Made by a program: the position numbers and the translations under genes. Of a DNA stretch of 34,610 bases, positions 12,911 through 34,610 are shown one piece after another; position 1 is the first letter of the stretch, and the number at the start of each line of letters is the position of its first letter. Under the pieces are notes generated by a model. That model was not told the origin of the DNA, made no database searches, and saw only the letters and a list, made by a program, of their open reading frames with translations. This DNA is from a virus. The stretch lies in the IMG/VR virus record IMGVR_UViG_3300032396_000069, positions 1 through 34,610 of that record. One strand, 5' to 3'.

Positions 12911-13206
12911 TGATGATTACACGAAACGAAGTGCGCCATCTGATTCGAAGTAAACTGGCTCAGGCCAAGTTCATGAACTATATTCCCGCCGTCATGGGGC
13001 GCGATGATGGAGGGGCGTCTTTCACCTTTACGGTACCGGGGGGACGGGGGTATACTTATGTACGGATTATCCAGAGTGGCAGCCCGATTACGCTGACCAA
13101 AGCCCTCAACCGGGCGGGCATTGCCGAAACAGGGGATCTCCCCGTCTGGCTGGACCAGGATGCCGATGGACGGTTGGTCATTATTTCCGCGAGGTTTACC
13201 GGCTGA
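12910..13206 (+). CDS. Small tail-associated protein, unknown function
   Basis: A 98-residue basic and beta-rich protein. It starts at the ATG at 12910, or at the next codon (ATG 12913), and overlaps the hub stop (TGATGATG); its stop overlaps the sortase-like start. It has no Cys, signal peptide or membrane segment. Its place between hub and sortase-like gene suggests a virion or tail assembly role, but this is inference. Confidence 0.6.
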   Translation: MMITRNEVRHLIRSKLAQAKFMNYIPAVMGRDDGGASFTFTVPGGRGYTYVRIIQSGSPITLTKALNRAGIAETGDLPVWLDQDADGRLVIISARFTG

Positions 13207-13703
13207 TGAAACGTGGATGGTTCCTGATTTTACTGCTGTGGTTCCTGGGAAGCGTGGCTCCTGCTTCCAGTGCCCCTCCCCCGATGGGCCTGCTGCTCAT
13301 CCCGTCTCTCCAGATGACCGAGCCGATCTACGAACGTATGGAAGCGAATGGGGTGCTGGATTTGAGCATCTTGGGCACGCATGTGGCGCATTATGGGGGC
13401 ACAGGGTGGCTGAACTCAGGCTATAGCCCTATCATCCTCGTCGGGCATCTGGCGCTCCAGGAACAACGACCCGGCGCATTCTACCGGCTGTCGGAAGTCC
13501 AGATCGGGGCACGGATCGTGGTGTCGGACCCGCATAGAAGTGCCTGGTTCCGCGTGACGGCCTCCTATGTCACCGATCCGTCTGATGCGGCGATCCTGCA
13601 AGTGCGACCCGTCCTTCCTGGCGCGGAGCAGCTCGTCCTGATTGCCTGTGAAGGCGCAGATGGTGCTCAGCGGCGTATCGTCATCGCGACGAGGGAGTTC
13701 TAA
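13206..13703 (+). CDS. Secreted sortase-like transpeptidase (class D/E/F type)
   Basis: The 165-residue protein opens with a hydrophobic signal or anchor (residues 4-17) and an Ala-Ser-Ser-Ala stretch suited to signal peptidase. The rest reads as a compact sortase barrel. It has Val-Gly-His (His81), then Gly-Ala-Phe-Tyr-Arg-Leu (90-95) and a strand with Gly-Ala-Arg-Ile-Val-Val. Ile-Ala-Cys-Glu-Gly follows (Cys148), then Arg156/Arg157 ahead of a final strand. This His-Cys-Arg order and spacing is the sortase catalytic set. Sortases cleave sorting motifs and join proteins to amines in the cell wall. The gene is coupled to tail genes on both sides. What it cleaves is unknown; no C-terminal sorting signal is visible in its neighbours. 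Confidence 0.75.
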   Translation: MKRGWFLILLLWFLGSVAPASSAPPPMGLLLIPSLQMTEPIYERMEANGVLDLSILGTHVAHYGGTGWLNSGYSPIILVGHLALQEQRPGAFYRLSEVQIGARIVVSDPHRSAWFRVTASYVTDPSDAAILQVRPVLPGAEQLVLIACEGADGAQRRIVIATREF

Positions 13704-27470: not shown

Positions 27471-29471
27471 TTAATCTTGACCCATCACAAAGGTCTTTTT
27501 CGGATGATATTCTTCCTCATCATCGGACACCACATTGTTAGTCCACAAGTGCCGATGCAGAGCAGTTTCTACCAGCACACGCGCTGGGGCAATGCCTGAG
27601 CTATTTTTCATGACCGCCAGCCAGGCTTGTTCGAGCCGGGCTCCGTCTTTGGTGAATTTGGGGGACAGAGTGAGATAGAGATTGGGTAAATGGTCAGAGA
27701 CCGACTGCCCCGCATTGCTATCGATGACCTGACCGGCGCGCACGCTCCGACTGTTGGCCTTGCCCACCTGGGAGGCAATGATTCCCACAAGGTTCAGGTC
27801 GATACACGTCTGCCCGATCAGGTTGGCTTTATCTTCGAGTTCGCTCCAGACTCCTTGACCGCGTGGGTTACGCGCTTTCTGTAGGTAGTCAAACGCCAGC
27901 ACGGAGACTTTGCGACCGGCGGCGCGACGTTCAGTGACGATGCGTTCGACAGTTTTCAGGATTTGGTCGAGCGATGCTCGTGCCGAGTCGATATAGATAG
28001 CCTTGCCGGGCCACTTACTGACTAGATCGATCCGGTGAAGCACCTGGCTGAGTTGATCGTCGCTGATGAGTTTCCCATTACGCCGATCCACCGGCACGCC
28101 CTTAGCGTTTTCGGAGTGCCACATCTGACTTTCGCGCTGCGCCGTAAAACTGGGACCACCATAGCGGGCGACCGCTTTCATCTGAACTTCTTCGGGCGAC
28201 CACTCCGGCCCCCACATGATCACGTCATGTCCCCGTTGGCGCAAGATGTCCAATCCAGTCTCGATAAATGCTGTTTTACCCAACCCTCCGCCGGACACGA
28301 TGTAGATCAATTTGCGGGGTTCCCATAGCTTCGCAAAGCCCCCCAAGTGATGCAGGCAGGAGTATGGGGAGAGAATGGATTCGGTGGGAGTTCCTTCTCC
28401 CAGGGTCCATCCCAGAATGTTTTGCAACGCCGTATCACTATCGACGATGCGAATGGTAGGTGCAGGAGGTTTGTGACCATTTCCGTTAGGAGCGTGCTCA
28501 TGGAGTTTAAAGACTCGTTCGGGCTTAAAGGCTTTTTTCGTTTCTTCCCAGGAGGGAAGACCCAACAAATCAGCAATGCGATGGGTGTTAAAATCTTCAT
28601 CGCACGAAAAGCAGCGCAACCCATGCGTCTGGAAATTCCAATTGGCACTGGGGGTGCGATCTTCATGAAAAGGACAGGGAATATTCTGGCGCGAATGACC
28701 ATTTGATCGGGGCGGCGCAATCTTCCAAGCATGCACTGCCGCCTGTTCAATCTCGATGCACCACTGTTGATAGCGGTCTTTGTACTCTGCTGGGATGTCC
28801 GTGCGCACGATGGGTGGTTCCACCGCTGGCAATACCGGCAGTTCCAGAGTCACCGACTCATAGGCGCTGTAAAGCGCTTCGGCGGTGACCATCTGGGGCG
28901 GTGTAGTGGGTGTGTCTTTGAGCCAGGCGTAGTGTTTCCCGCAGGGATGTAGGGACGGCGGACGAACGACCAAACAATCCGATCCGTAACGCAGCTCAAT
29001 GTGCGGACGCTGGCGGTCGGGTTGCCCCTTTTCATCCCACGCCCCCATGGTTCCCGGACGATCCAGGCGACCGCCCATCGGACGATGCTCAGGCTTAATC
29101 CATTCGTCAAATTGGGGGCAGAGCACTGAAGCATGGAAACCGCCACCCGGCGTGCGTACCACATGGGCATAATCCACCGGTAGGTCGAGCGCGAACAGGA
29201 AGGCATTCACGGCATTCTCATTGTCCTGTTTGTCGAAATCGACGACGACTAAGCCCCCAATGCCACAGAACGCTGAGTAGCCCGTCGTGCGACTATCTTT
29301 CCAGGGAAGTTCCCGAACCTGTTCACGGGTTTGGTGTGCTTCTTGAAATAGCGCCCAGTTGGTGAAGGGACGTTTTTCAGCGATGGGAATCACATTGAAT
29401 CCCCAGCCGAAATCCATAGCGGCGGCGTTCCAGATCGCAGACTTGGCGGGCGCTTCGGTGACGGCAGTCAT
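27471..29471 (-). CDS. Prim-Pol primase with CHC2-type zinc finger and DnaB-like helicase
   Basis: 666 residues. Residues ~12-200 are an archaeo-eukaryotic-type primase/polymerase with Val-Asp78-Phe-Asp80, Pro-Gly-Gly-Gly-Phe-His113 and a later Arg-Pro-Pro-Ser-Leu-His strand. Residues ~262-295 form a zinc finger of the DnaG CHC2 type (Cys266, His269, Cys287, Cys290). Residues ~380-640 are a RecA-type motor with Walker A (Gly394-Thr400, Lys399) and Walker B (Phe527-Asp528). It would unwind the fork and lay primers. The start overlaps the initiator-like gene (ATGA). Mixing a Prim-Pol with a bacterial-type zinc finger in one chain is notable but known in phages. Confidence 0.8.
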   Translation of the reverse strand: MTAVTEAPAKSAIWNAAAMDFGWGFNVIPIAEKRPFTNWALFQEAHQTREQVRELPWKDSRTTGYSAFCGIGGLVVVDFDKQDNENAVNAFLFALDLPVDYAHVVRTPGGGFHASVLCPQFDEWIKPEHRPMGGRLDRPGTMGAWDEKGQPDRQRPHIELRYGSDCLVVRPPSLHPCGKHYAWLKDTPTTPPQMVTAEALYSAYESVTLELPVLPAVEPPIVRTDIPAEYKDRYQQWCIEIEQAAVHAWKIAPPRSNGHSRQNIPCPFHEDRTPSANWNFQTHGLRCFSCDEDFNTHRIADLLGLPSWEETKKAFKPERVFKLHEHAPNGNGHKPPAPTIRIVDSDTALQNILGWTLGEGTPTESILSPYSCLHHLGGFAKLWEPRKLIYIVSGGGLGKTAFIETGLDILRQRGHDVIMWGPEWSPEEVQMKAVARYGGPSFTAQRESQMWHSENAKGVPVDRRNGKLISDDQLSQVLHRIDLVSKWPGKAIYIDSARASLDQILKTVERIVTERRAAGRKVSVLAFDYLQKARNPRGQGVWSELEDKANLIGQTCIDLNLVGIIASQVGKANSRSVRAGQVIDSNAGQSVSDHLPNLYLTLSPKFTKDGARLEQAWLAVMKNSSGIAPARVLVETALHRHLWTNNVVSDDEEEYHPKKTFVMGQD

Positions 29472-31175: not shown

Positions 31176-31520
31176 CTACCCCCTAAACACGGTTACGGTC
31201 TTGATATGCTTGGCCTGGAGCGCCAAGTCAATCGTGCCCTTCGTCCCGCGCGACTCGCCGTCCCAGAACGCGACCACTTCTTGTGCCGCGTCCACGATCA
31301 GACGGTTGCGTATCATGCCCGCCGACTTGCCGAAGCGGTCCCAGTCGGGAAGGAAGACGACCACGGATAGCCCCCGTGCTTCAGCGTAGCCTGCTGCGAG
31401 GCTATCCACGCCCTGCGCGCCACCAGAGATGATGATGGTCCCCGCTGGAAGCGCATCGATGTACGCCTTGATACGCAGGTAGTCCGTCCAGGTGCGACTG
31501 CCGACAATCGCGATCTTCAT
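31176..31520 (-). CDS. SLOG-family nucleotide-sensor protein (YspA/DprA-related)
   Basis: 114 residues from ATG 31520 (ATGA overlap). It has a first strand with Ile-Val-Gly-Ser-Arg (~4-8), then Ile-Ile-Ser-Gly-Gly-Ala-Gln-Gly-Val-Asp (~31-40), Pro-Asp-Trp (~59-61), an Arg-Asn-x-x-Ile-Val-Asp helix and Gly-Thr-Lys-Gly-Thr-Ile-Asp (~91-97). That is a Rossmann-like SLOG domain, which binds nucleotide-derived ligands. In other systems SLOG proteins sense signalling nucleotides in defence. Here it stands alone, so a ligand sponge or sensor are both possible. Confidence 0.7.
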   Translation of the reverse strand: MKIAIVGSRTWTDYLRIKAYIDALPAGTIIISGGAQGVDSLAAGYAEARGLSVVVFLPDWDRFGKSAGMIRNRLIVDAAQEVVAFWDGESRGTKGTIDLALQAKHIKTVTVFRG

Positions 31521-31741
31521 GCCCCCTCCCCCCGTTCCACCGTCTCCATCGCCCTGCACCAGGCACTCCAACTCGACGGATCATCCCGGCGCGACTCCAG
31601 CACCAGATACGCCTGGCAGATGGTGGTGTACAATTCCTGGTCGGTCAGATGCAGATGGGCGATGCCCGCGCGGGTCAGGTCGGCGCGGATTTGGTGCAGG
31701 TCGTGGTGGATGTCGTGGATCGTGTGGTAGATGGTGCTCAT
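31517..31741 (-). CDS. His-rich small protein, 74 residues
   Basis: ATG 31741 is set by an ATGA overlap with the upstream stop. The first ~15 residues alternate His with Ile/Leu/Asp (five His in 13 residues). The next part is a helix with Arg/Asp. The end is Arg/Glu/Gly-rich. Its 5' 57 bases are nearly identical to those of the 28-residue gene at 32510-32596. The His cluster could bind metal. Confidence 0.55.
   Translation of the reverse strand: MSTIYHTIHDIHHDLHQIRADLTRAGIAHLHLTDQELYTTICQAYLVLESRRDDPSSWSAWCRAMETVERGEGA
31685..31741 (-). repeat. 57-base near-identical repeat, copy 1
   Basis: Start of the His-rich gene. It matches 32540-32596 with 3 mismatches in 57 bases, all starting at an ATG inside an ATGA overlap. 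Recent duplication or gene conversion is likely. Confidence 0.8.
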
Positions 31742-32154
31742 GGTTTCCTCCCGAACTGCCAAACAGGTGTTTCGGCAATTAACGTGTATTCGCCCTTGGT
31801 CGCCGTGTCCAGCACGCACAGATCAACCACGTGCGTCCAGCCAGGTTCGTAGACGTGGACTAACTGATAGCGCCAGCCGTCATCCTCGTAGCTGTGCGGG
31901 ATGATGAAATCACCCACCTCAGTCATCATCGTGACCATCTCGTCCCAGTCGTCGGGGTGAATGACAGTCAGGCGAATTTGGGGACCCCGTTCAGCCATCA
32001 ACTCTTTGCGCACGAGTTCAAGTTGGTCCTCGAAACTGACGGGGGCAGTATCTTGTGCTGAAACTCCCAAGATTCCCAGGATGTCTTGCTCCAACTTATC
32101 CGAGAGGGCTTGAAAGAACTTGCGCGTCACGTCATCGGGAAGGTTGGTGCTCAT
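31738..32154 (-). CDS. Unknown protein, 138 residues
   Basis: ATG 32154 overlaps the upstream stop (TGATG); GGGGAG is upstream. Helical N-terminal half with Asp/Glu/Leu, then a strand-rich half with Trp and Tyr. No zinc motif is visible. Coupled on both sides. Confidence 0.55.
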   Translation of the reverse strand: MSTNLPDDVTRKFFQALSDKLEQDILGILGVSAQDTAPVSFEDQLELVRKELMAERGPQIRLTVIHPDDWDEMVTMMTEVGDFIIPHSYEDDGWRYQLVHVYEPGWTHVVDLCVLDTATKGEYTLIAETPVWQFGRKP

Positions 32155-32513
32155 CAGTATTCTCCCCATCGTTCCCCGTAACGGTCATAATCGGGTTCAG
32201 GGCGCGAGTTCCAGTAGCGTTCCTCATCCGGCGACTCGTGCCGCGACTGGTCGAACCGCAGGGCTTTCAGCGAGCACGCCACACACATATCCGTGTTACC
32301 CGTCTCTGCACCACAGATGATGCAGTGCAGCCCCTCGTAGGGTGGCGTGGTGCGCCAGTCCGGCGTTTTCATGTCCAGGCAGCGGGGGCAGAAGCCCCAG
32401 TGTTCAGCGTGCTCGTAGGCGATGAACCGTCCACATTGCTCGCAGCGCGGGGCATAGAAGCCCTGCTCGAACCATTCCTCGTCATCGGTACTGATCGGCT
32501 CGATGTAGGTCAT
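32154..32513 (-). CDS. Small protein with four CxxC pairs
   Basis: 119 residues from ATG 32513 (ATGA). Cys-x-x-Cys-Gly-Arg (~24-29), Cys-Pro-x-Cys (~42-45), Cys-Ile-x-Cys-Gly (~64-68) and Cys-Val-x-Cys (~77-80) fit two zinc ribbons; an Arg/Glu/Tyr-rich tail follows. Role unknown; nucleic acid or protein binding is likely. Confidence 0.6.
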   Translation of the reverse strand: MTYIEPISTDDEEWFEQGFYAPRCEQCGRFIAYEHAEHWGFCPRCLDMKTPDWRTTPPYEGLHCIICGAETGNTDMCVACSLKALRFDQSRHESPDEERYWNSRPEPDYDRYGERWGEY

Positions 32514-32596
32514 GACTTCTCCTCCTTCGGGCTGGCGTCGCGGATCTGGTTCAGGTCGTGGTGGATGTCGTGGATCGTGTGATAGATGGTGCTCAT
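32510..32596 (-). CDS. 28-residue His-rich microprotein
   Basis: A complete frame joined by ATGA on both sides (to the zinc-ribbon gene upstream and to the four-CxxC gene downstream). Its first 19 codons match the His-rich gene at 31517-31741 with 3 base changes, and it then diverges into a short Asp/Lys/Glu-rich end. Because both copies keep the His pattern, the peptide may be functional rather than only a coupling device. Confidence 0.5.
   Translation of the reverse strand: MSTIYHTIHDIHHDLNQIRDASPKEEKS
32540..32596 (-). repeat. 57-base near-identical repeat, copy 2
   Basis: Start of the 28-residue gene, partner of 31685-31741. Confidence 0.8.
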
Positions 32597-32799
32597 GCTT
32601 CACCGTCCTTATATAGCGGCTCAAACCGCATCGCGTCCGCGTAGCAGTCGGGGCACACCTCGATCAGTTCCCCACGAAAGTTGTGGATCTGACCCCAGTC
32701 CGTGAGGCGGGTAGAGAGGCCCTTGAACACCGTCAGCGTCTCCGGCTTCTGTTGGAGACAGCGGGGACAGTAGCGCAGGTGCTTAATCTTGCGGGTCAT
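32593..32799 (-). CDS. Small zinc-ribbon protein, 68 residues
   Basis: Cys-Pro-Arg-Cys (~11-14) and Cys-Pro-Asp-Cys (~49-52) with basic residues at the start: a classical zinc ribbon. ATGA overlaps with both neighbours. Role unknown. Confidence 0.65.
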   Translation of the reverse strand: MTRKIKHLRYCPRCLQQKPETLTVFKGLSTRLTDWGQIHNFRGELIEVCPDCYADAMRFEPLYKDGEA

Positions 32800-33050
32800 T
32801 GGTCGCCGTCCAGTGGCGTGAAGTCCAACTCAATATGCTTACCGCCGGGGGTGCTGCTGGCCTCAACCCAATGCTTTTCGCACATCCCGAAGGGGCGACC
32901 AGCGGGCGATCCGGTGACAATCACTCGCAGTATTTTCTCAGAGCATCCCTTGATGTTGCAGCGACGGATGCCCCAGTTGATGCCAAGCGCCGTTGTTTCA
33001 ATACTGCCGAATGGATCATCAGTGCCAATGATTTGAATATTGTCAGACAT
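32796..33050 (-). CDS. Small Cys-containing protein, 84 residues
   Basis: Cys-x4-Cys and Met-Cys-x-x-His suggest a zinc site. It is the first gene after the attenuator-like leader; GGAGG precedes the ATG by 6 bases. The terminator-like stem ends 17 bases before the start codon. It leads the early operon towards the left. Confidence 0.6.
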   Translation of the reverse strand: MSDNIQIIGTDDPFGSIETTALGINWGIRRCNIKGCSEKILRVIVTGSPAGRPFGMCEKHWVEASSTPGGKHIELDFTPLDGDQ

Positions 33051-33066
33051 ACTGACCTCCGACTAA

Positions 33067-33110
33067 AAACTCCCATCGTTTGACGGATGATTTGGCGACT
33101 CTGGGAGTTT
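33067..33110 (-). terminator. Terminator-like stem with T-run (attenuator, part 1)
   Basis: On the minus strand AAACTCCCA (33110-33102) pairs with TGGGAGTTT (33075-33067), perfect 9 bp with a 26-base loop, then TTTTT. It sits just before the ribosome site of the gene starting at 33050. Formation should stop transcription before that operon. Confidence 0.65.
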
Positions 33111-33149
33111 CCCAACCGAAGAGGGGAAATCGCAAAATCACCCGTCAAA
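33079..33149 (-). promoter_or_regulatory. Alternative long stem (antiterminator-like, attenuator part 2)
   Basis: TTTGACGGATGATTTGGCGA (33079-33098, plus strand) is the near-perfect complement of 33130-33149: 8 bp, one G-U, 6 bp, one mismatch and 4 bp. Its 33079-33098 arm lies inside the terminator loop while the other arm lies outside, so both stems cannot form together except as a pseudoknot. Confidence 0.65.
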
Positions 33150-33192
33150 AGACAGGAGTCTTGTCTTCGGCATCTTCGGCTTCCCAGGGCCG

Positions 33193-33214
33193 CCAAGCGA
33201 TATTCTCCGCTTGG
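33193..33214 (-). promoter_or_regulatory. Palindrome, operator or leader hairpin
   Basis: CCAAGCG (33193-33199), 8 bases, CGCTTGG (33208-33214): 7 bp perfect. It lies in the leader directly beside the other palindrome. Confidence 0.5.
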
Positions 33215-33215
33215 T

Positions 33216-33233
33216 TCACTGATTGCTCAGTGA
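33216..33233 (-). promoter_or_regulatory. Operator-like palindrome at the transcription start
   Basis: TCACTGA-TTGC-TCAGTGA, perfect 7-bp half-sites with a 4-base centre. It begins 7 bases after the -10 box of the promoter at 33241-33269, so it overlaps the expected start point. A dimeric repressor would fit; the regulator at 33978-34484 is the nearest candidate. Confidence 0.6.
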
Positions 33234-33240
33234 TGTAAAC

Positions 33241-33269
33241 AGTCTATCACGCCATGCGCTGTAAATCAA
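33241..33269 (-). promoter_or_regulatory. Sigma70-type promoter of the early operon
   Basis: On the minus strand TTGATT (33269-33264), 17 bases, TAGACT (33246-33241). Both boxes match four of six consensus bases. The start would be near 33234, giving a ~185-base leader before the first gene. Confidence 0.55.
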
Positions 33270-33347
33270 CCCCCAATCACCCGACTGTCGAACATTGGTC
33301 GATTTTACGCCATACGATTGGAGGAATCCGTTATCTTTTGGTGTCTT

Positions 33348-33587
33348 TCAATCCTCCGACTGTCGCTGATAGCCCCACAGATAGACCGCCTCACCTGCAT
33401 TGTTGTGGTACATATAGGTCTTGCCGGTGACCCCATACCCCAGGACGGTCAGGTTGCTGGGCTCGACGCCCACGGTATGGGTGGTAGGGACGTGGCGGCC
33501 ACAGGTGGCGCAGGTCGATGGATAGCCGCCATGCGCCTCGAAGAAGGCGAGGCAGTCGGGGCAATTCGTTGATCGCTCAGTGGTCAT
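33348..33587 (-). CDS. Small zinc-ribbon protein, 79 residues
   Basis: ATG 33587 overlaps the upstream stop (ATGA). Cys-Pro-Asp-Cys (~9-12) and Cys-Ala-x-Cys-Gly-Arg-His (~26-32) form a zinc ribbon; the rest is beta-rich with Tyr and Gly. It is the last gene before the ~300-base non-coding control region. Confidence 0.65.
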   Translation of the reverse strand: MTTERSTNCPDCLAFFEAHGGYPSTCATCGRHVPTTHTVGVEPSNLTVLGYGVTGKTYMYHNNAGEAVYLWGYQRQSED

Positions 33588-33985
33588 TCGTCCACTCCAC
33601 CCATATCTGCTGCCCATTCCCCGCAGTCGTTCCCGCGCGTGTAGTTGCCCTCATCCACGGGGTGGGAGGTGCTGGGATCAAAGGGGATATGAATGCCCTG
33701 CTGTTCCCAGTCTCCCCCCTCATAGTCCTCATCCTCCAACTCCAGTTCGTCCTCAAATTCCGACGAGCACTCCGTGCATAGGTGGCTGGGGTTGGCGAAG
33801 TCGAACCACTCGAAGCCGCCATAGAACAGCCCGCAGCCCCAGCAGAATCCCATCGCGTAGGCGTGCTCCGCGCAGTAGTAGGCGCTGGGATGCGCCGGGT
33901 CGTCGTTGTCGGGCAGCCAGCAGGGCGAGCCGTCCTGGTCGCAGTCAGGGTGTTCGCAGCGTTGGTTCAGGGTATCTTCAGTCAT
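33584..33985 (-). CDS. Acidic Cys/His-rich protein, 133 residues
   Basis: Cys-x4-Cys, a further Cys and Cys-x-x-His near the start, Cys-Trp-x-Cys-Gly, and Cys-x-x-Cys in the middle, then a strongly acidic stretch and a Gly/Asp/Trp-rich end. Probably two zinc sites and a disordered acidic part. It overlaps the regulator gene by 8 bases. Unknown role; an acidic DNA mimic is one guess. Confidence 0.55.
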   Translation of the reverse strand: MTEDTLNQRCEHPDCDQDGSPCWLPDNDDPAHPSAYYCAEHAYAMGFCWGCGLFYGGFEWFDFANPSHLCTECSSEFEDELELEDEDYEGGDWEQQGIHIPFDPSTSHPVDEGNYTRGNDCGEWAADMGGVDE

Positions 33986-34484
33986 CTTGTTGGTCCTTCC
34001 GATAAGGCTTTTTGCCTATCCCTTGGTATCCGCAATTCAGGCAGGTGTACTCCGTCCAGAGATAATCCCGCGTTTTCAGCAGGTAGGGAAACTCAGCGCG
34101 AACATCTTGAGATTGTCCCCAGACTATCCGATCAGAGCCGCAATGGAAGCATACTTTATTCATTGGTTCACCAGTGGCTCCAAAACCGCTTTTCAGTTGG
34201 TCGATAAGTTTATCAGCCCGCGCAGCGGTCACCAGATCGGACAAGTCAAAATGCGGGTTGACGCCTGTCATTAACCATTCGATGGATATACCGTAAAGAT
34301 CGCGCAATTGCAGCAGGCGATGGAGGTCCAATCCTCTTCCCCCCCGTTCCCATTGACTGATGGTGGCCGCCGATCCTGATAATCCCAGCAACTTGGCGAC
34401 TTGCCCCTGCGAGAGTCCAGCGGCTTTGCGCGACTCAATCAGACGGTGTAGGATACCTTCCACCTCGGCATTGACCTCACTCAT
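33978..34484 (-). CDS. XRE-type HTH regulator with C-terminal zinc ribbon
   Basis: 168 residues from ATG 34484, with GGAGG 8 bases upstream. Residues ~10-73 form a lambda-repressor-like helix-turn-helix: Leu-Ser-x-x-Gln-Val-Ala-Lys-Leu-Leu-Gly-Leu-Ser and Thr-Ile-Ser-Gln-Trp-Glu-Arg-Gly. The C-terminus has Cys112-x-x-Cys115 and Cys148-x-x-Cys151, a zinc ribbon. It lacks the usual CI peptidase domain, so it should not be cleaved by RecA. It would repress or time the early operon; nearby palindromes are candidate sites. Confidence 0.7.
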   Translation of the reverse strand: MSEVNAEVEGILHRLIESRKAAGLSQGQVAKLLGLSGSAATISQWERGGRGLDLHRLLQLRDLYGISIEWLMTGVNPHFDLSDLVTAARADKLIDQLKSGFGATGEPMNKVCFHCGSDRIVWGQSQDVRAEFPYLLKTRDYLWTEYTCLNCGYQGIGKKPYRKDQQDD

Positions 34485-34608
34485 AATATTCTCCTCCCAG
34501 AGCGGCATAGACGATCTTCTCATCACGTGTCCAGGGCCGCACGATGTAGCCCTTTTCATAGGCTTGCGGATCGACGCTCAGGCAATCCGTCCACGTCACG
34601 AGGTCGTG
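34477..34608 (-). CDS. Partial early gene at the right edge, unknown
   Basis: A frame open to the window edge gives 43 residues, rich in Tyr, Glu, Asp and Trp, ending at TGA 34477-34479 which overlaps the regulator start by 8 bases. That overlap style is the rule here, so it is probably a real gene whose start lies outside. No family is recognised. Confidence 0.5.
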   Translation of the reverse strand, partial: HDLVTWTDCLSVDPQAYEKGYIVRPWTRDEKIVYAALGGEYYE

Positions 34609-34610
34609 GC

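Follow-up and report, generated by a model that had tools for sequence, protein, structure and literature searches.

Does the intergenic gap ahead of a minus-strand gene block in an uncultivated phage encode a structured RNA leader, and does this leader act as a switch? The window analysed here, a linear IMG/VR virus record of 34,610 bases with 58% G+C, contains at this locus a 297-nt interval (33347–33051) between minus-strand genes. A preliminary description had suggested an attenuator, in which a terminator stem and a 20-base imperfect stem interleave in a simple A, B, A′, B′ order and thus exclude each other. Position, fold strength, G-U strand asymmetry and competing complementarities beyond chance lend good support to a structured RNA leader, possibly a switching one, in front of the operon. 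We regard the segment 33269–33051 as the putative promoter and structured 5′ leader of an early-type operon; conditional attenuation, with predicted termination at a run of five U and a presumed regulation and signal, is tentatively considered its most likely function, closely rivalled by RNase III processing or translation control.

Genomic setting and candidate promoter

Upstream of the gap, on the same strand as the leader, lies the gene of an HTH_3 repressor-like regulator with a zinc-ribbon-like C-terminal end (33978–34559, minus strand; Pfam HTH_3, 1.6e-10; PHROG transcriptional regulators); two small proteins without family are also encoded there. Downstream, the long minus-strand block starts with the gene of an 84-aa cysteine-containing protein without family match (32796–33050), whose start codon at 33050 is located 5 nt from the Shine-Dalgarno sequence GGAGG (33060–33056), and includes a prim-pol/DnaB-like helicase gene (27471–29471). 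Because these genes reside on the minus strand, the relevant RNA is that of the minus strand. The designation of the operon as early-type is deduced from this gene content, namely a repressor-like HTH protein upstream and a prim-pol/helicase downstream. The block also encodes a SLOG-family (YspA/DprA-like) protein (31176–31571, minus strand).

A candidate sigma-70-like promoter, TTGATT-17-(TGa)TAGACT, is found at 33269–33241 on the minus strand, with a predicted start near A33234. It matches 8 of 12 positions of a consensus that may not be that of the host, and carries an extended −10 element; counting both strands, the window has six such promoter-like sites, of which this one alone falls within 32000–34610, and a stricter scan at 9/12 retrieved no site. 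If transcription began near 33234, a perfect 7-bp hairpin (UCACUGA and UCAGUGA around a GCAA loop, TCACTGAnnnnTCAGTGA; 33233–33216, minus strand, pair probability >0.99) would lie at about position +2, followed one base later by a second 7-bp hairpin, CCAAGCG-8 nt-CGCUUGG (33214–33193, minus strand, −10.2 kcal/mol). The palindrome at 33216–33233, of which the window contains no second perfect copy, might function as a 5′ stem-loop or equally serve the HTH protein as a repressor operator; a related sequence with 4/18 mismatches is present at 33566–33583, close to a likely start site of the gene whose end is at 33348. Two leader ORF candidates were detected, one of 24 codons including two Trp (GTG 33219), which has a GAG-like ribosome site and starts inside the hairpin, and one of 11 codons (ATG 33173); the ribosome sites of both are poor. 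Further upstream, two copies of a 17-nt direct repeat (CGACAGTCGGgtGATTG and CGACAGTCGGagGATTG; 33274–33290 and 33349–33365, minus strand) lie 75 bases apart, one at the end of the upstream gene and the other in the gap before the candidate promoter, and are possibly protein-binding sites.

A 33-bp hairpin and its competing pairings

The dominant element of the leader is a single ungapped 33-bp inverted repeat built from 33130–33162 and 33066–33098, of which 27/33 positions are Watson-Crick pairs; in the minus-strand RNA, four additional G-U pairs bring the total to 31/33. The 5′ arm (33162–33130) includes the A arm of the preliminary description and the 3′ arm (33098–33066) both A′ and B′ before it runs into the U-run. 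The loop region in between (33129–33099) comprises a small hairpin, UGGGA-AAC-UCCCA (33114–33102 region), and segment B (33110–33102). The U-run (U5, 33069–33065) is positioned exactly at the 3′ base of the hairpin, with U33069–33066 paired inside the stem, and the favoured fold is this single long hairpin, whose end at the U-run lies 5 nt ahead of the Shine-Dalgarno sequence.

The repeat ranks as the top inverted repeat of the window with a score of 18, compared to 10.5–14 for the best repeat in each of eight whole-window dinucleotide shuffles. For a 121-nt segment the fold reaches a z value of −6.5 with none of 200 shuffles as strong, and among 4600 sliding windows on both strands the leader region has the strongest fold and the lowest energy for its G+C. 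Calculated, as all fold energies given here, at 37 °C for RNA alone without proteins, the operon strand folds at −57.2 kcal/mol and the opposite strand at −42.1 kcal/mol, which is 15 kcal/mol weaker. Consistently oriented to the operon strand are also the transition differences between the arms, all four of which produce G-U pairs on the minus strand (1/16 by chance). No second copy of the arms exists within the window.

The previously described terminator stem is indeed present on the minus strand. Segments B (33110–33102, AAACUCCCA) and B′ (33075–33067, UGGGAGUUU) form a perfect 9-bp complement next to the U-run at 33069–33065, and such a match was equalled in 15 of 20000 loop shuffles in a post hoc test that kept the long hairpin constant. 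The 20-base stem, 33149–33130 with 33079–33098, is found as well, but not as a separate element, as it constitutes the upper part of the 33-bp repeat reaching 33162/33066. The A/A′ stem therefore extends through B′ and the U-run, and the simple A, B, A′, B′ switch was rejected in that form. In the lower half of the hairpin, 33162–33151 pairs with 33077–33066, i.e. with the descending arm of the terminator and most of the U-run, and for this reason both folds place a stem directly before the U-run. Since the hairpin topped by the proposed anti-terminator stem draws on the descending arm and the U-run in its lower part, formation of that stem alone would not abolish a terminator-like structure. 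In a transcript ending at 33066 the originally proposed terminator, the least stable among three alternative folds, is about 16 kcal/mol weaker than the long hairpin (−62.9 versus −78.7 kcal/mol). It requires a loop of about 26 nt, or of 17 nt if three inner pairs form, and was not listed by an intrinsic-terminator scan for loops of 3–8 nt, which reports only a weak 6-bp version. In contrast to a structured, possibly switching leader as such, the specific terminator/anti-terminator switch is not well supported.

According to the fold models, a better candidate anti-terminator is provided by a long-range helix not listed in the preliminary description. Its 5′ strand belongs to the segment 33196–33173 (minus strand), of which 33196–33182 (UUGGCGGCCCUGGGA) pairs with 33106–33092 by 13 Watson-Crick and one G-U pair out of 15 positions; in a further post hoc test, 34 of 5000 conditional shuffles equalled this helix. 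The adjacent CCGAAGA (33179–33173) is able to pair with UCUUCGG (33121–33115), and via 33196–33193 the helix competes with the second leader hairpin. Its ensemble probability exceeds 0.92 while the exposed RNA ends at 33092–33084; it loses at an exposed end of 33082, and from 33080 onwards the long hairpin prevails with a probability >0.99. The computed barrier for refolding along a direct path is about 29 kcal/mol, which represents an upper bound. Since the long-range helix prevails as long as the polymerase has not come close to the lower stem, a co-transcriptional switch different from that originally suggested is possible. A weak 5–6-bp hairpin can still form before the U-run in the long-range-helix fold.

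Known leader elements and possible functions

In the whole window no Rfam family was matched at its gathering score, in agreement with the preliminary description that the element matches no riboswitch. The leader yielded only weak matches (two microRNA precursors, a snoRNA and c4-a1b1), which were judged to be due to chance, those to microRNAs merely reflecting a long hairpin. By this Rfam comparison the leader resembles no riboswitch, T-box or r-protein leader, and we do not claim membership in the riboswitch, T-box, put or c4 classes. A literature search provided general comparators only. Attenuators of the trp type and of Bacillus subtilis r-protein leaders resemble the present leader in having stems that exclude each other and precede a U-run upstream of the first gene, and two short candidate leader ORFs are found here; in contrast, the supposed anti-terminator arm and the 3′ arm of the terminator are united here in one stable 33-bp hairpin, the ORFs lack a good ribosome site, and no ligand or aptamer is known. 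Attenuation of the trp type relies on regulatory codons in a leader peptide that is translated; of the two ORFs, the one at 33219 carries the two Trp codons. In an attenuator, mutually exclusive terminator and anti-terminator are of near-equal stability at the decision point. The long-range helix and the long hairpin exchange at an exposed end of 33082; the initially proposed pair, about 16 kcal/mol apart, is unbalanced. Intrinsic terminators consist of a GC-rich stem of about 5–15 bp with a short loop, followed by a U-rich tract; the leader combines a stem with U5, but it favours a 33-bp stem, and the loop of the short alternative measures about 26 nt. The present leader parallels c4 and P4 CI antisense-RNA immunity leaders in that its segment B has possible pairing partners both upstream and downstream within it; however, the c4 score is at chance level (10 bits compared to a gathering score of 46.7, E = 9.6) and no processed RNA is known. 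The put RNA of phage HK022, with two stems in about 70 nt, contacts the zinc-binding domain of the RNA polymerase β′ subunit (PMC9378689). The present phage leader, likewise early-type, would also start with a pair of neighbouring stem-loops directly downstream of the promoter, followed by a terminator-like stem; this likeness concerns the stem layout only, as plain 7-bp hairpins totalling 41 nt contrast with the bulges and triplex in the about 70 nt of putL (PMC9378689).

In the tentatively preferred scenario of conditional attenuation, the candidate promoter at 33269–33241 would start an RNA carrying the structured leader of the minus-strand early-type operon. The first structure to form would be the upstream helix 33196–33182:33106–33092, sequestering segment B together with the tip of the 3′ arm. 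Upon emergence of the lower 3′ arm, the long hairpin (33162–33066) would become favoured and form right behind the polymerase at the U-run. The choice between these folds might then set the amount of transcription continuing into the operon, possible inputs being polymerase speed, ribosomes translating a leader peptide or the binding of a protein. This scenario would accommodate the strongest fold and inverted repeat of the window, the coincidence of folding strand and operon strand in both energy and G-U asymmetry, the U5 exactly at the 3′ base of the hairpin, and two competing pairings of the same segments that both surpass conditional shuffles. It is also consistent with the sharp thermodynamic crossover at 33082, the high computed barrier and the long operon-strand gap with its promoter-like site. 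Less compatible are the presence of only five U, a stem far longer than in usual intrinsic terminators, and the three alternative folds all ending at the same U-run, which makes true anti-termination by any of them uncertain; moreover, the searches gave no relative of the leader and hence no covariation. In a more specific version, a single very long hairpin would serve as terminator and also as sink for the would-be anti-terminator arm, control depending on whether the earlier-formed upstream helix resolves before the polymerase clears the U-run. Such a kinetic timer made of RNA would differ from known riboswitches and from put/nut elements; we consider it quite unlikely.

RNase III-type processing is the main rival because duplexes of 33 bp are natural substrates of such enzymes, while terminators seldom reach this length. 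A double-strand-specific RNase of the host would cut the leader duplex, or the duplex would shield the 5′ end as a stability or standby element, thereby setting translation or stability of the first mRNA, and the U-run would merely be part of the stem, in which U33069–33066 are in fact paired. RNase III generally needs a duplex of two helical turns and its processing sites span about 20 bp or more, a length exceeded by the near-continuous duplex right before the Shine-Dalgarno sequence. The early mRNA of T7 and the lambda N leader likewise contain RNase III sites in long irregular hairpins just before early phage genes. These sites differ from the present leader by its U-run at the stem base and its competing upstream helix; processing, which we regard as possible but somewhat doubtful, would leave the U5, the upstream helix and the B:B′ match unexplained. 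Every alternative fold leaves some stem before the same U-run, and consequently the hairpin might also act as a constitutive partial terminator, reducing read-through to a constant extent and involving no switch. We deem this unlikely; it would render the long leader and the extra complementarities beyond chance unneeded.

Control at the level of translation would demand that the hairpin, sometimes together with pairing of CCGA (33170–33167) to UCGG (33062–33059), limits ribosome access to GGAGG at 33060–33056. Longer fold models indeed pair part of the Shine-Dalgarno sequence, but the CCGA:UCGG pairing is weak and varies among folds and the core stays mostly free; such control is considered unlikely. 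The inverted repeat could finally operate on the DNA level without an RNA role, as protein-binding site or as remnant of replication or of a mobile element, for which the palindromes at 33216–33233 and 33066–33162 next to the gene of an HTH regulator might be quoted. Given the G-U strand asymmetry, which favours RNA, and arms without another copy in the window or related copies in viral contigs, this reading appears highly improbable. Two further candidates were discarded, a retron since no reverse transcriptase gene was seen in the neighbourhood, and a transposon end since the arms have no second copy.

If conditional attenuation applies and the leader switches, it would provide an RNA-based control point for early-type genes in an uncultivated phage group without relatives in the searched phage collection, and would broaden leader attenuation to include a co-transcriptional design with three states. 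Should the hairpin serve only for RNase III cleavage or partial termination, it would be an ordinary, though strong, phage leader element.

Relatives of the phage

Neither the leader nor its 84-aa gene has a relative in the viral, genome, phage or plasmid collections searched. Viral contigs were queried with the prim-pol, major-capsid-like, 84-aa, HTH, replication-initiator-like, 133-aa and methyltransferase proteins, and relatives were obtained for the capsid region (L021 with 99.9% nucleotide identity, L022 and L023 with 83–86%) and for the methyltransferase (L027, 81% amino acid identity) only. None of these contigs reaches the leader, L022, L023 and L027 being short and L021 covering the other side only; genome-contig scans were empty, and the phage and plasmid collections were without match. 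The hairpin-arm motif has 19 exact matches in viral contigs, roughly as many as chance would give, and no inverted partner lies near any of them.

The 99.9% identical contig (L021/L026) extends the phage by about 18 kb leftward of window position 1. This extension encodes, as judged by eye, many glycosyltransferase-, sugar-nucleotide-enzyme- and methyltransferase-like proteins beside structural genes. Within the window, a sortase-like protein, likewise recognized by eye, is encoded at 13206–13703 on the plus strand, which is unusual in a phage structural/lysis region.
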